This document shows positions 16,324 through 24,206 of a stretch of DNA of 34,474 nucleotides, one piece after another (the first letter of the stretch is position 1; each line of letters opens with the position of its first letter). Location of the stretch: NCBI GenBank assembly GCA_018005585.1, contig JAGMZX010000026.1:1-34474 (forward strand), in the 5' to 3' direction. The position numbers were made by a program, and so were the translations under genes. The notes beneath the pieces are model-generated. The model was given only the letters and a program-made list of their open reading frames with translations, made no database searches and was not told where the DNA came from. This stretch comes from Candidatus Hydrogenedentota bacterium (GTDB taxonomy: Bacteria > Hydrogenedentota > Hydrogenedentia > Hydrogenedentales > JAGMZX01).

Positions 16324-17127
16324 ATGCGAAACCGTGTGGCAACCCTGGTCTGCATGATTGCCGCGGTGGTCCTGCCGCGGAATTTGGCGGCAGCGCCGGT
16401 GGTTGACGCGCCCGCGACGGCCGGTACGGCGCGACTCGACGAAATGCTGGAATTAGATGTTGTCGTGCGATGGGCGGGCCCTGTGGACGCATTTGTTGTG
16501 TTGCCCCTGAAACGCGAGGAGATGGACTGGGGCGACCTGGAAGTGGCGCGGACTTCCGCGCGGGCCTTGGGCGGCGAAACGGTAGTTACGCAGACGCTGC
16601 GGGTCAAGCCCAAGAAGGCGGGTCAGTTCGAAACGCCGCCGCTAAAAATACGATATGTCTCGAAGGAAGCTCTGGCTGCCGAGGGCGGTACCCCGACCGG
16701 GTACGACATCCTGGAGGTGCCCGCTATCGCGATTACTGTGAGAGAGCCCGGCGGCCGTCTGGGATACGTCGTGACGGCGGCTGGGTTGATCGTCGCGGGC
16801 GCGGCTATCGCCATCTGGGCGCAGCGGCGGCGCCGCAACCAGGCCGGTCAGGAGGCGCCGTTGTCGCCGATGGAACGGATGAACGAGTCGCTGCACGCGG
16901 CGCGCCGCCATCGCCTGGACGGCGATTTCTATTCGTTTTATCGCATGCTCGGGCAGGCGGCCGGGCAATTGCCCGCCGAAGACGGGGCCGGGCTGCAGCA
17001 GAAGTTTGAGGAGCGTTGCCAGGAGGTGGGCTACCGCGGGGTGCGCCCCACCGAGGACCAGATGGAAGGCGACCTGCGCGACGTGGAGCGCGCGCTGGCG
17101 CATTGGAAGGAGACTGCGACACCATGA
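16324..17127 (+). CDS. Short BatD-like membrane protein, first gene of the Bat operon
   Basis: The 267-residue protein has a signal peptide (about residues 1-24, MRNRVATLVCMIAAVVLP), a periplasmic beta-domain of about 120 residues, one membrane helix near 143-165 (YVVTAAGLIVAGAAIAIWAQ) followed by a run of arginines, and a cytoplasmic helical tail of about 100 residues. This two-sided layout and the phrases KKAGQFETPPLKIRY and DGDFYSFYRMLGQAAGQLP match BatD-like proteins of Bat/MoxR operons, but it is much shorter than full BatD, which is encoded further downstream. ATG 16324 gives the signal peptide; upstream in-frame TTG 16240 does not fit. The stop overlaps the moxR start as ATGA. Its role is probably as a membrane partner of the MoxR/VWA machinery (inference). 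Confidence 0.65.
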   Translation: MRNRVATLVCMIAAVVLPRNLAAAPVVDAPATAGTARLDEMLELDVVVRWAGPVDAFVVLPLKREEMDWGDLEVARTSARALGGETVVTQTLRVKPKKAGQFETPPLKIRYVSKEALAAEGGTPTGYDILEVPAIAITVREPGGRLGYVVTAAGLIVAGAAIAIWAQRRRRNQAGQEAPLSPMERMNESLHAARRHRLDGDFYSFYRMLGQAAGQLPAEDGAGLQQKFEERCQEVGYRGVRPTEDQMEGDLRDVERALAHWKETATP

Positions 17128-18110
17128 GCGTGAATGTAGAAGCGGTGCGCCGGAGCGTGGAACAGCAAGCGCAGTTCGTGAACCGCCTGCGCGCGGAAAT
17201 GGCCCGAATCATCGTCGGCCAGCAGTATATGGTGGACCGGATGCTTGCGGGGCTGCTTGCCAACGGTCACGTGTTGATCGAGGGCGTGCCCGGTCTCGCG
17301 AAGACTACGGCGGTGAACACGCTGGCGCGGGCGATGGCGTGCACGTTCAAGCGTATCCAGTTCACGCCGGACCTGTTGCCCGCCGACTTGATCGGGACGC
17401 TGGTGTACAACCCGAAATCGGGCGATTTCACGACGAAGAAAGGCCCGATCTTCGGCAATATCATTCTCGCGGACGAGATCAACCGGGCTCCGGCCAAGGT
17501 GCAGAGTGCGCTGCTTGAAGCGATGCAGGAGCGCCAGGTGACGATCGGTGAGGAGACTTACAGGCTCGAGGAACCGTTCATGGTGCTCGCGACCCAGAAC
17601 CCGATTGAGCAGGAGGGCACGTATCCGCTGCCGGAAGCGCAGGTGGACCGATTCATGCTCAAGCTGCGAATCAATTACCCGACGCGCGCGGAAGAGCGGG
17701 AGATCATGAGCCGTATCGACCTGTTGCATGCGACGGCCGTGTCCCCCGTCGTGACACGGCAGGAAATCCTGGAAGCGCGCGAGGTGGTGAACCGGATTTA
17801 TGTCGATGAAAAGGCGAAAAACTACATCGTGGACATCGTGCACGCGACGCGCAACCCGGAAGCGTTCGGCCTCAAGACCAACCACCTGATTGAGTATGGC
17901 GCCTCGCCGCGCGCGAGCCTGTATCTCCAGCAGGGGGCGCGGGCGCTGGCGTTTCTCCAGGGTGAAGGCAACGTGTTCCCGAATGACGTAAAACAGATCG
18001 CAATGGACGTGCTGCGCCACCGGGTACGCGTCACTTATGAAGCCGAGGCGGAGAACATCACGAGCGAAGACGTCATCCGCAAAGTGCTCGACACGGTGCC
18101 CGTGCCGTAA
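17124..18110 (+). CDS. moxR: MoxR-family AAA+ ATPase
   Basis: The 328-residue AAA+ ATPase of the MoxR (AAA_3) type has Walker A GVPGLAKTT near residue 53, Walker B IILADEINRAP near 113, sensor 1 in MVLATQNPIEQEGTYPLPEAQ, and the arginine-bearing C-terminal lid domain with ASPRASLYL (sensor 2 region). MoxR proteins are chaperone-like ATPases that act with VWA-domain proteins; the next genes encode a DUF58 and two VWA proteins, the expected partners. ATG 17124 overlaps the preceding stop and has AAGGAG 12 bases upstream; an in-frame extension to 17016 lies within the previous gene and is not coding. GGAGG directly after its stop is followed by no start codon at SD distance that I can support. 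Confidence 0.95.
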   Translation: MSVNVEAVRRSVEQQAQFVNRLRAEMARIIVGQQYMVDRMLAGLLANGHVLIEGVPGLAKTTAVNTLARAMACTFKRIQFTPDLLPADLIGTLVYNPKSGDFTTKKGPIFGNIILADEINRAPAKVQSALLEAMQERQVTIGEETYRLEEPFMVLATQNPIEQEGTYPLPEAQVDRFMLKLRINYPTRAEEREIMSRIDLLHATAVSPVVTRQEILEAREVVNRIYVDEKAKNYIVDIVHATRNPEAFGLKTNHLIEYGASPRASLYLQQGARALAFLQGEGNVFPNDVKQIAMDVLRHRVRVTYEAEAENITSEDVIRKVLDTVPVP

Positions 18111-18182
18111 GGAGGATTTGTTACGGACAGGGAGACAGGAGAGTCAAGGGGACACGAAGAGAGGACCGGTGAAGCGAGAGCG

Positions 18183-18611
18183 ATGAATCAGGAGCAGTCA
18201 AAGAAGGTGCGTGAACAGACCACTGGCGCCGCAATCGAAGGCGACCGTGTGTTGGGGTCAGGATTGCCGGAACCTGTCTTTGAGCAGGCCCCGTGCCGCG
18301 AGGCAGAACGGAGAGGCGTGGCGTTCACGCGGCAGGATGCCGGCGCTCTGCGTTACAGAGGAGAAGAACGCGCCACGGCTCTGAGCTTGGATTTGAAAGT
18401 GGAAGAGAAAACCGATCCCGAACCCACATCGGCCGGAGAGATCTTGCCGGTTCCTGAAACGCAGGCCTTGACTCATTTGCGCCCGGGCGACATGTGGCGC
18501 GGAATACCCACTCATTTCAATGACCGGCTATCGCGCGGCGTCAAGCGCCTTGTGAGCGCACCTGCGCGCGTGTCGCGGTTGGATTCTTATGCTGTGGCGA
18601 GGTTGAACTGA
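18183..18611 (+). CDS. Orphan hypothetical protein of doubtful reality
   Basis: A 142-codon frame starts at ATG 18183 and ends one base before the DUF58 start. That placement would suit translational coupling and keeps the operon closed. The product is polar, with no signal peptide, membrane helix or recognised domain; the last third (LRPGDMWRGIPTHF and SRGVKRLVSAPARVSRLD) is basic. Against coding: no clear SD, codon use with less G/C at third positions than its neighbours, and internal repeats that look RNA- or DNA-based rather than protein-based. In GC-rich DNA a frame of this length can occur by chance. It could instead be non-coding leader RNA or a small insertion. Confidence 0.35.
   Translation: MNQEQSKKVREQTTGAAIEGDRVLGSGLPEPVFEQAPCREAERRGVAFTRQDAGALRYRGEERATALSLDLKVEEKTDPEPTSAGEILPVPETQALTHLRPGDMWRGIPTHFNDRLSRGVKRLVSAPARVSRLDSYAVARLN
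18264..18467 (+). repeat. Duplicated hairpin motif in the Bat spacer
   Basis: Two imperfect direct copies sit 180 bases apart: TTGCCGGAACCTG...GCAGGCC (18264-18290) and TTGCCGGTTCCTG...GCAGGCC (18444-18467). Each can form a CCTG/CAGG mini-hairpin, and the copies differ mainly in the AA/TT pair and the loop length. They may be repeated protein- or RNA-binding sites, or ends of a small inserted element. Confidence 0.45.
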
Positions 18612-18612
18612 C

Positions 18613-19503
18613 ATGCTCCCGTCGGAACTGATGCAACAGATACGCCGGATACAAATCCGGACCAGCCGGATGGTGAATGACGTCGTGGCGGGCCAGTACG
18701 AGAGCGTGTTCAAGGGCCAGGGCATGGAATTCAAGGAAGTACGGGAATACGTGCCCGGCGACGACGTGCGTGCCATTGACTGGAACGTAACGGCGCGCAC
18801 GGGCCATCCGCACGTGAAGGTGCTGGCGGAAGAGCGGGAAATGACCGTGATGCTGCTGGTCGACGCGAGCGGTTCGGGCCGGTTCGGCAGCAGGGGGAGG
18901 TTCAAGTACGAGGTGGCCGCGGAACTGTGCGCGGTGCTCGCATTCTCCGCGATTCACAACAACGACAAAGTCGGCTTGCTCGTGTTCACGGACAAAATTG
19001 AACTGTATGTGCCTCCCAAGAAAGGGCGTCAGCATGTGTTGCGGGTTATCCGCGAAGTGCTGTTCTTCAAGCCGAAAGGCCGCCGCACGGACATACCCGC
19101 GGCGCTGCATTACCTCAACAGCGTGGTCAAGCGGCGCGCCGTCGTTTTCCTGGTTTCGGATTTTCTCGCGGACGGCTACGAAACGCCGCTGCGCATCGCG
19201 AACAAGCGCCATGACGTGATTGCCGTGGCCGTGACCGATCCGCGGGAAGAAGAGTTGCCGGACGTGGGCCTGCTCTGCGTGCGCGACACGGAAACGGGCC
19301 GCGAAACCCTTGTGGATTCGAGTAATCCCGAGGTGCGCCGCCAGTACGCGCTGGCGGCGCGCAAGCGCGCGGAACAGCGGGACGCTATCTTCCGCCGCAC
19401 CGCGGTGGACGCAATACGTGTGCGGGCCGACGAAGAGCGGTCCTATTTCAACGAACTGTATCGCTTCTTCCTGATGCGCGAACGGCGCCGGGCGACGGCG
19501 TGA
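18613..19503 (+). CDS. DUF58 protein with degenerate VWA domain
   Basis: The 296-residue protein begins with the DUF58 signature. GMEFKEVREYVPGDDVRAID is followed by WNVTARTGHPHVKVLAEERE (about residues 36-76), and then comes a VWA-type fold. A complete MIDAS-like DASGS occurs at 84-88, and LVSDF stands at the later metal-site position. DUF58 proteins are the regular partner of MoxR ATPases and are probably cytoplasmic or membrane-attached adaptors. ATG 18613 has GAGG about 10 bases upstream and follows the orphan ORF by a single base; the next gene begins 10 bases after its stop. No signal peptide is present, as expected for the family. Confidence 0.93.
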   Translation: MLPSELMQQIRRIQIRTSRMVNDVVAGQYESVFKGQGMEFKEVREYVPGDDVRAIDWNVTARTGHPHVKVLAEEREMTVMLLVDASGSGRFGSRGRFKYEVAAELCAVLAFSAIHNNDKVGLLVFTDKIELYVPPKKGRQHVLRVIREVLFFKPKGRRTDIPAALHYLNSVVKRRAVVFLVSDFLADGYETPLRIANKRHDVIAVAVTDPREEELPDVGLLCVRDTETGRETLVDSSNPEVRRQYALAARKRAEQRDAIFRRTAVDAIRVRADEERSYFNELYRFFLMRERRRATA

Positions 19504-22586: not shown

Positions 22587-23286
22587 ACCGCGTCGTTGCC
22601 TGCTCATCGCCGGCGCGTGTGCGGCGCTGCTCCTGGCGCGCACCGCGCCTTGCGAGAGCGTTCATGAAAACATAGCGGAAGCCAACCAACTCCTGGATGA
22701 AGGAAGGTATGAAGAGGCCGCGGCGCGCTATAAGGATGCCCAGAAGGACAATCCCGATTTGGAGTCCCTGCGCTATGCCGCGGCATATGCCGGCTTCAGG
22801 TTTGCGGAAAGTCTCGCCGGCCAAAATCCGGAGCAGGCTATTGCGAAGTATCAGGAGACCGCCAACGCCTTCAAGGAACTTGCCGGGGCGGGCGACGCCG
22901 CAATGCGCCGGGAAGCGGAATTGGGCGCGCTCAATTGTGACGCCCGCGCGGCGGAACTCGAAGCGAAGCCGCAGGAGTACCTGGACACGGAGGACAAGAG
23001 CGCAGTCCCCCTTGACGAATTCAAGAAGCGTGTGGACCGGCTGCGCCAGGCCTCGCGAGGCTATGAGCAGTTTCTCAGGCAATATCCGGCCTGTGCGCCC
23101 GCGCGGCAGAACCTTGAACGGCTCCGGTATTTCTGGAAGCGGATGCTGCAGGAACCGCCCGAGTCGCCGCCGCCCGTGCGCATCATGAGCACGCGCACGG
23201 ACTATCCCGGCGCGCAGGCGCAGCCCCTGCCCGAGGAGGCCAGCGTCGTGCTTGTTCCCGGCGCCGCGCATGGAGCCCAACCATGA
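22579..23286 (+). CDS. TPR lipoprotein-like/periplasmic protein of the Bat operon (BatC-like)
   Basis: ATG 22579, with GGAGG about 10 bases upstream and inside the end of batB, gives a 235-residue product with a signal peptide ending near CES (about residue 25). A TPR pair follows (IAEANQLLDEGRYEEAAARY, DLESLRYAAAYAGFRFAESL), then helical repeats (YEQFLRQYPACAPARQNLER) and a proline-rich tail. A BatC-type TPR protein is expected at this place between BatB and BatD. An in-frame extension to 22510 lies within batB and lacks an SD. The cysteine near the cleavage site could make it a lipoprotein, but the lipobox is poor. It overlaps the next gene in an ATGA. Confidence 0.75.
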   Translation: MREPRRCLLIAGACAALLLARTAPCESVHENIAEANQLLDEGRYEEAAARYKDAQKDNPDLESLRYAAAYAGFRFAESLAGQNPEQAIAKYQETANAFKELAGAGDAAMRREAELGALNCDARAAELEAKPQEYLDTEDKSAVPLDEFKKRVDRLRQASRGYEQFLRQYPACAPARQNLERLRYFWKRMLQEPPESPPPVRIMSTRTDYPGAQAQPLPEEASVVLVPGAAHGAQP

Positions 23287-24206
23287 GTCCGTTGCTCTTG
23301 CTCATTTTGTTCTCAGGTTTGCTGGCGCAAGCTCCGGAGGGCGCGCCGCCGGCGGCCGAAGCCCCCGCGCCGCCGGCGGCCGATGCCCCCGCGCCGTCCG
23401 AGGCGGTTGCCGAAGAAGCGGAGCAAGGGCCGCCGCCGTTGATGATGCGCATGGCCGCGATACAGGCAGGTGTCGAGGGCCGTTCGGAGCCGTACCTGGA
23501 TAAGGAACTCGAAAGCCTGAAGGGACTGTTGACCACGTTGCCCTATGATACGTTCAAGAAGGTGGCCGTGGCCGAGCAGGAATGCGCTCCCGGCCAAGAG
23601 ACGACGTTGCCCATCGATGACCGTTTTGCCTGCGTAGTGCGGCCGGAATTGGCCGCGCCGCCGGAGGGCGCGCCTGCCGCCCCCGCGGCGGGCGGCGCGC
23701 TGACGCTGGACGCCGAGGTCGTCGACCAGTCGGGCGGCGGCAAGGTCGTCGCGCTCGCGGCGGTCGCGCAGATACCCATGAACCAGACCATTCTGTTTCG
23801 CGATATTCCGCGTGACTCGGGACAACTGCTCGTGTTGTTGACGCCGGCGATGAGTCAATCGCAGCAGCAGCAACAGGACGAACAGCAGCAGGAACAGCAG
23901 AGCGAACAGCAACAGCAGCAGGAACCACAGGACCAAGAGGACCAGCAAGACAAACAGGAACAGCAAGACAAACAGGAACAGCAAGACAAACAGGAACAGC
24001 AAGACAAACAGGAACAGCAAGAGCAGCAGCAGTCCCCCGAGCAGGAAGAAGCGTCGCTGGACGAAGACCCGCAACAAGACCAGCAGCCGAAGGAACACCA
24101 GAATATCGAGGCGCTGCTGGAAGCCCTGGAGCAGCAAGACAAGCGCGAGCAGAAGCTCCTGAAGGACGCGCCGGTCCGTCGTGAAATGCAGCGGGAGTGG
24201 TGGTAA
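23283..24206 (+). CDS. Exported Gln-rich protein of the Bat operon
   Basis: The 307-residue protein has a short signal peptide (MSPLLLLILFSGLLAQ), an Ala/Pro-rich stretch (18-50), a small folded region of unknown type (about 55-195, PYLDKELESLKGLLTTLPYD), a Gln/Glu/Asp/Lys-rich low-complexity region (about 198-275), and a helical end, NIEALLEALEQQDKREQKLL. That ending is like the last part of BatC proteins, where a similar helix follows an acidic Q-rich linker, so BatC may here be split over two genes (this one and the TPR gene before it). Exactly four copies of an 18-base unit encode four DKQEQQ repeats. Four-base overlap upstream; the GTG of batD immediately follows its stop. Confidence 0.7.
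   Translation: MSPLLLLILFSGLLAQAPEGAPPAAEAPAPPAADAPAPSEAVAEEAEQGPPPLMMRMAAIQAGVEGRSEPYLDKELESLKGLLTTLPYDTFKKVAVAEQECAPGQETTLPIDDRFACVVRPELAAPPEGAPAAPAAGGALTLDAEVVDQSGGGKVVALAAVAQIPMNQTILFRDIPRDSGQLLVLLTPAMSQSQQQQQDEQQQEQQSEQQQQQEPQDQEDQQDKQEQQDKQEQQDKQEQQDKQEQQEQQQSPEQEEASLDEDPQQDQQPKEHQNIEALLEALEQQDKREQKLLKDAPVRREMQREWW
23943..24014 (+). repeat. Four perfect 18-base tandem repeats
   Basis: The unit CAGCAAGACAAACAGGAA occurs four times without a single mismatch, encoding the Q-Q-D-K-Q-E hexapeptide repeat. Perfect identity at third positions points to recent expansion by slippage, so copy number is likely to vary between strains. The array lies in an A/C-rich island unlike the surrounding GC-rich code and is a multiple of three, so copy changes keep the frame. 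Confidence 0.95.

Follow-up and report, generated by a model that had tools for sequence, protein, structure and literature searches.

The spacer between moxR and a DUF58 gene in a Candidatus Hydrogenedentota bacterium very probably holds a decaying GxxExxY gene

The long gap between the moxR and DUF58 genes of this operon is very probably occupied by a GxxExxY gene in decay, which entered the junction in an ancestor of the genus. The gap lies in a stretch of 34,474 nucleotides, called the window here, in the genome denoted G000; an intact copy of the gene is found at the same place in G001, a sister genome of the same genus. Decay is supported by homology, by synteny with the intact G001 copy, by the sister position of the two copies in the tree, by loss of the lysine of the ExK triplet and by an even spread of changes over the codon positions. 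Points against it are the open frame of 167 codons, gaps that stay in frame, the retention of 14 of 22 conserved columns and the lack of an inverted repeat. The anomaly pointed out in a first-pass annotation of the spacer is real, and its cause is mostly ordinary: a known family is represented there by a copy that has decayed.

Organization of the moxR-DUF58 junction

The spacer has exactly the 502 bases first ascribed to it, running from the moxR stop (18110) to the DUF58 ATG (18613). At 104 loci with moxR elsewhere, the moxR-DUF58 gap is mostly between -4 and 100 nt. The operon had been described as overlapping at almost every junction; this is so at four of the six other junctions examined (-4, -4, -77 with a TTG start, and -4), while at the remaining two the genes lie 10 and 17 nt apart. 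One frame of the spacer is open from the moxR stop to within 1 nt of the DUF58 ATG, and the start of its ORF, MNQEQS, matches by alignment that of the G001 copy, MNEPEL. The features of the junction are listed in Table 1.

The purine richness and the weaker codon bias reported for the spacer were both borne out. A+G amounts to 76% in the first 72 bases and 55% in the remainder. The ORF has a CAI-like value of 0.437, compared with 0.567-0.733 in seven other operon genes, which is slightly above that of the shuffled spacer (0.365 ± 0.031); its GC3 is 0.62, compared with 0.73-0.82. The last operon ORF examined (window 23283-24206) encodes a glutamine-rich, low-complexity product (QQQ...DKQEQQ repeats) with no Pfam match.

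Table 1. Features of the moxR-DUF58 junction in the window, and loci of the related VW clade
Feature	Location	Strand	Basis or remark
MoxR AAA+ ATPase gene, upstream neighbour	17124..18110	+	PF07726, 221.7 bits; ATG at 17124 overlaps the preceding gene by 4 nt
Purine-rich leader, possible remnant of a repeat array	18111..18182	+	76% A+G; occupies the place of the CACAGAGG array of the sister genome; composition fits
Decayed GxxExxY (PDDEXK_3) gene, 142 aa	18183..18611	+	TIGR04256 and PF13366 above curated cut-offs; alignment to G001
TIGR04256 domain match	18213..18554	+	G000:C26:18213-18554, profile search, 44.4 bits
Signature motif, GLPEPVF in place of GxxExxY	18261..18281	+	position worked out from the frame; holds the first TTGCCGG copy (18264)
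Catalytic-type Asp codon, kept	18390..18392	+	conserved throughout the canonical copies
ExK active-site triplet, degraded to E-P-T	18420..18428	+	Lys conserved at 0.98 in the family; Thr in the window
Second TTGCCGG copy, coding LPVPETQA (LLPIHEAQ-type family motif)	18444..18467	+	frame and alignment
DUF58 gene, downstream neighbour	18613..19503	+	PF01882, 290.1 bits; ATG 1 nt past the stop of the spacer ORF (TGA-C-ATG)
VW clade loci	L035, L036, L059, L060, L073, L174, L176, L179		families f7, f8, f10, f11

The spacer ORF belongs to the GxxExxY family

The ORF, taken at first for an orphan, is a GxxExxY homologue. It matches TIGR04256 (GxxExxY protein) with 43.7 bits (cut-off 35) over profile positions 4-116 of 116, and PF13366 (PDDEXK_3, a PD-(D/E)XK nuclease-like family) with 41.9 bits (cut-off 22) over positions 3-116 of 117. 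By homology it is a descendant of this family in which the signature motif is degenerate. The window copy shares with the family the whole domain, the glycine and glutamate of the signature, the catalytic-type aspartate and the C-terminal GVKRLV region; it differs in the tyrosine of the signature (conserved at 0.98), which is a phenylalanine, in the lysine of ExK, and in a drift under little amino-acid constraint. Of the residues of an active PD-(D/E)XK nuclease, the D and the E are kept and the K is replaced by threonine.

Matches to the ORF at E<=1 were obtained in 31 of 40 genomes, its own included, the weaker of these being individually unconvincing. When the host genome was searched, as had been proposed, no second DNA copy of the spacer was found, but a further and better conserved family protein is encoded on another contig (C81:25198-25536, 120.4 bits). 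AlphaFold models from three-sequence alignments have a mean pLDDT of 34 and 35, too low for use, and a PDB sequence search with the G001 copy gave no match. A role in a defence system was also considered and discarded: the window protein had no hit in PADLOC, and the G001 copy has only a weak similarity to Cas4 (E 0.0058).

Decay of the window copy relative to its intact sister

The syntenic G001 copy is intact, scoring 139 bits and retaining the triplet as ELK. In a tree of 58 rows it is the sister of the window copy (support 97/89), with a branch length of 0.50 as against 1.85 for the window copy. Of the 22 family columns that are conserved at 80% or more, 21 are kept in G001 and all 22 in the copy of G046, which occupies the same junction; eight are changed in the window copy, the losses including K to T, Y to F and N to H.

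With the G046 copy as outgroup, the changes on the window branch are distributed as 23/32/30 over the first, second and third codon positions (p 0.45), and those on the G001 branch as 18/10/26 (p 0.03). The means over 48 outgroups are 20.7/29.1/21.5 and 16.0/10.3/23.9, respectively; all outgroups are distant, so these counts are rough. The even spread on the window branch indicates that amino-acid constraint is mostly gone. Synonymous divergence between the window and G001 is higher in the spacer ORF (pS 0.74) than in the flanking genes (0.53-0.55), and this leaves room for replacement of the gene instead of simple descent.

The frame nevertheless stays open, and both gaps of the window copy against G001 keep it. 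This speaks against decay: when neutral decay of a G001-like ancestor was simulated, only 2-6% of the runs were still stop-free at 0.3-0.48 substitutions per site. It is conceivable, though unlikely, that the frame is kept merely as a translated linker, for which any stop-free sequence would serve, with ribosomes at TGA-C-ATG passing to DUF58. Such a linker is compatible with decay of the protein, since it concerns only why the frame is open. The 1-nt spacing of stop and start is in keeping with it, as is the lack of stops despite amino-acid drift; however, the 2-6% chance of a stop-free outcome without any such role is not negligible. DUF58 moreover has a Shine-Dalgarno-like GAGG of its own (duplex -7.6 kcal/mol, compared with a mean of -5.1 at 44 loci without an insert), so translational coupling is not obviously needed, and we do not retain it as a necessity.

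The same junction in related genomes

In public records, the relatives of the window with this junction are members of Candidatus Hydrogenedentota. The survey covered 57 DUF58 loci of the order in 53 genomes, with moxR seen in 55 of the 57. At 11 of the 57 loci a GxxExxY-derived ORF lies in the junction on the same strand. The window copy is dead and the G001 and G046 copies are intact; the remaining eight (G007, G008, G040, G010, G059, G016, G027 and G035) form what we call the VW clade. In family f3 (L047, L049, L057, L058) the junction is occupied by a small ORF of another kind, some 65 aa long and with four cysteines conserved.

The eight VW copies lack ExK and have in common the motif VW..(P)E...G..L(N)CGY..D. 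They separate from the other 50 rows of the tree at 100/97. A VW profile scores its own rows at 137-202 bits and nothing else above 67 bits in 68 genomes, although such a profile favours the rows on which it was trained. The single sequences of G027 and G035 offer weak evidence (E 0.0027 and 0.00047, respectively, with the custom profile; nothing and E 0.059 with Pfam), and they were assigned to the clade by the shared motif and synteny. The close pair G010/G059 differs at 5/4/26 sites by codon position, with a dN/dS of 0.037/0.227 = 0.16; judged by these substitutions, the clade is under purifying selection in this one pair measured. The ORF overlaps the DUF58 start in G010, G059 and G016. 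It appears from these comparisons that a catalytically dead relative became an operon gene in several families.

This raises the question of whether the window ORF is itself a working, catalytically dead operon gene, namely a fast-evolving member of the same captured lineage. We regard this as improbable. The shared junction and strand of the 11 copies, the selection seen in G010/G059 and a frame that ends 1 nt ahead of the DUF58 ATG would fit such a gene, and the AU test does not reject a tree that unites the 11 syntenic copies in one clade (p-AU 0.131, or 0.277 when G046 is left out); against these, the window copy lacks the VW motif, the tree groups it with the canonical G001 copy, outside the well-separated VW clade, its changes are even over the codon positions, and its codon bias is the weakest in the operon. 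The earlier suggestion of a new lineage-specific Bat gene therefore fits the relatives, with a dead clade confined to the junction and purifying selection in the measured pair, better than it fits the window copy, in which active-site residues are lost and constraint is slight.

The reported repeats and hairpins

The spacer had been reported to contain two copies of TTGCCGG-NN-CCTG...GCAGGCC able to form hairpins. The letters are present, at 18264 and 18444, but the repeat is no better than chance: the gapped alignment of the pair scores 19, and a direct repeat as good or better arose in 300 of 300 dinucleotide shuffles; ungapped, the pair scores 8.0, while the best of the shuffles average 9.4. 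Duplication as the origin of the hairpin repeat was rejected at this chance level. The two copies are in frame, 60 codons apart, and fall on two conserved protein motifs (GLPEPVF and LPVPETQA).

A structured RNA in the spacer that sets the ratio of MoxR to DUF58, another of the early proposals, has a negligible probability: the first hairpin does outdo most shuffles in folding (z -2.0, with 5 of 200 shuffles matching it), but the second (z +0.26) and four longer spacer windows (z -0.10 to +1.01) fold at chance, an Rfam scan of the window returned 0 matches, the motifs are absent from the G001 and G046 spacer sequences, and the stretch is explained as coding.

Inverted repeats at the sister loci

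In G001 the spacer is 815 nt long and is bounded by an inverted repeat of 26 nt (81% complementary) made up of CACAGAGG/CACGGAGG units, which begins 11 nt past the moxR stop and finishes 15 nt short of the DUF58 ATG. The G046 spacer is also framed by repeats, with an arm score of 36, the best of 57 partners. The G001 junction (L033:693-1488) further shows direct repeats around the full GxxExxY gene that resemble mini-copies of it; these look internally deleted, having the leader and the two ends of the gene but lacking its middle.

No inverted repeat is left around the window copy, whose flank score of 16 lies below the 99% point of the controls (24). The purine-rich leader was considered as a provable remnant of the repeat and not accepted; it is suggestive only and indistinguishable from composition, 349 of 1000 shuffles matching the array as well. 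A solitary array of the CACAGAGG type occurs elsewhere in the genome of the window (L280; G000:C47:29449-29472), in a 3-kb locus where no family ORF was found. A small mobile element, as was also proposed for the spacer, thus describes its history (a GxxExxY copy, a family scattered in relatives, a repeat-bounded spacer in the sister) but not its present state, with neither an inverted repeat nor a second DNA copy.

Repeat framing of GxxExxY genes

Framing by inverted repeats was examined in 57 family copies drawn from 83 loci (L003-L031, L142-L173 and L216-L237), short domains, duplicates and cut flanks having been dropped. Over 220 nt, the 5' flank of each copy was aligned to the reverse complement of its 3' flank. 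The mean score is 40.1; with partners swapped it drops to 18.5, and 201 control stretches gave a mean of 17.7. The 99% point of the controls is exceeded in 43 of the 57 copies, which have inverted arrays of short tandem units that are matched within each copy. The 14 others include the window copy and the syntenic G001 copy; the right arm of the latter falls outside the 220 nt compared.

In the set of 43, copies with more similar proteins also tend to have more similar arms (Spearman 0.38, or 0.34 when only pairs below 60% identity are taken), and none of 2000 label permutations gave a correlation as high. The relation is of moderate strength, and some proteins differ in unit from their closest neighbours. 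One orthologous locus seen twice within a genus, L165 (G014) and L171 (G037), has units of the CGCGAATGA type in one case and of the CGCAAATTT type in the other, at both ends, which suggests that the two ends change in step. Arrays are also found on their own. Such clade-matched framing is as would be expected of a mobile, nuclease-linked element, in which the gene would move and its product would cleave the units. In the open-licence full text of PMC, no description of repeat framing of GxxExxY genes was found, the name occurring merely in gene lists, and five repeat-unit strings occur there in unrelated papers only. S23/four-helix-bundle genes (PF05635; L238-L267) are framed likewise: of 30 loci fetched, three had cut flanks, and 23 of the other 27 show the framing, with units different from those of GxxExxY genes, e.g. 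CAGTTGA, AGGGTGA and TCTGGAG.

No clean empty site was found for the two family copies tried (L004 against G059/G016; L165 against G026/G034/G037); in these comparisons the flanks fell on separate contigs or the orthologous site was itself filled, and mobility itself is therefore something we infer. A tblastn search with the G046 copy gave no match in 50,697 phage records and matches in 8 of 72,556 plasmid records. Six of the eight plasmid places were fetched; their inverted-repeat scores are strong in Gemmatirosa (64) and Bernardetia (36), 22 in Treponema and 14-17 in the three others. On a replicon of Sphingomonas parapaucimobilis (L293; NZ_CP155749.1), a GxxExxY gene with a repeat-like leader and no right-hand partner lies between fabD and fabG.

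Comparison with known elements and a possible history

Bacterial MITE-like repeats and insertion sequences have terminal inverted repeats, lie between genes, occur in several copies per genome and leave solitary ends. The GxxExxY units share all of these properties; they differ in that the unit as described has no apparent transposase or target duplication, and in that its ends are arrays of short units, variable between copies and matched within each copy. A second likeness is with the intervening sequence (IVS) of the Coxiella 23S rRNA, which is an S23 ORF (PF05635) with complementary ends, the ORF being under reductive evolution (PMC4990558). Here too a small ORF is framed by complementary ends, but the protein family is another, the site is between protein genes and not inside rRNA, and the window copy has no complementary ends.

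The gene and its repeats could together have formed a small mobile or homing-like unit, with a nuclease acting on its own repeat type. Such a unit may have settled between two genes read in the same direction, where a gap was tolerated. The window copy would then have lost the repeats and the active site, with no enzyme role left, and its frame may have stayed open through chance or because stop codons before DUF58 are weakly selected against. In other families of the order, a relative occupying this site would have turned into an operon gene that is conserved but catalytically dead.

A broader reading, which we put forward tentatively and hold to be somewhat short of an even chance, is that GxxExxY proteins may be the sequence-specific nucleases of minimal mobile elements, homing-like and of a class not described before. 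Each would consist of a single small PD-(D/E)XK gene and inverted arrays of short tandem units, with units tied to the protein clade and ends evolving in concert, and solitary arrays would be targets or scars. One lineage would have been captured at moxR-DUF58 as a dead component of the operon, the window representing an independent or ancestral copy in decay.

The spacer itself is a modest fossil, which accounts for a puzzling gap. Its junction has a wider interest: at one place in a conserved AAA+/VWA operon, a single nuclease family is represented in related bacteria by intact copies, by dying ones and by copies that appear domesticated, and this offers a chance to watch the capture of a selfish-type gene. 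GxxExxY proteins, known by the name of their motif only, are framed by repeats whose unit follows the protein clade, and their function is thereby open to a direct test, namely whether each nuclease cuts its own unit.
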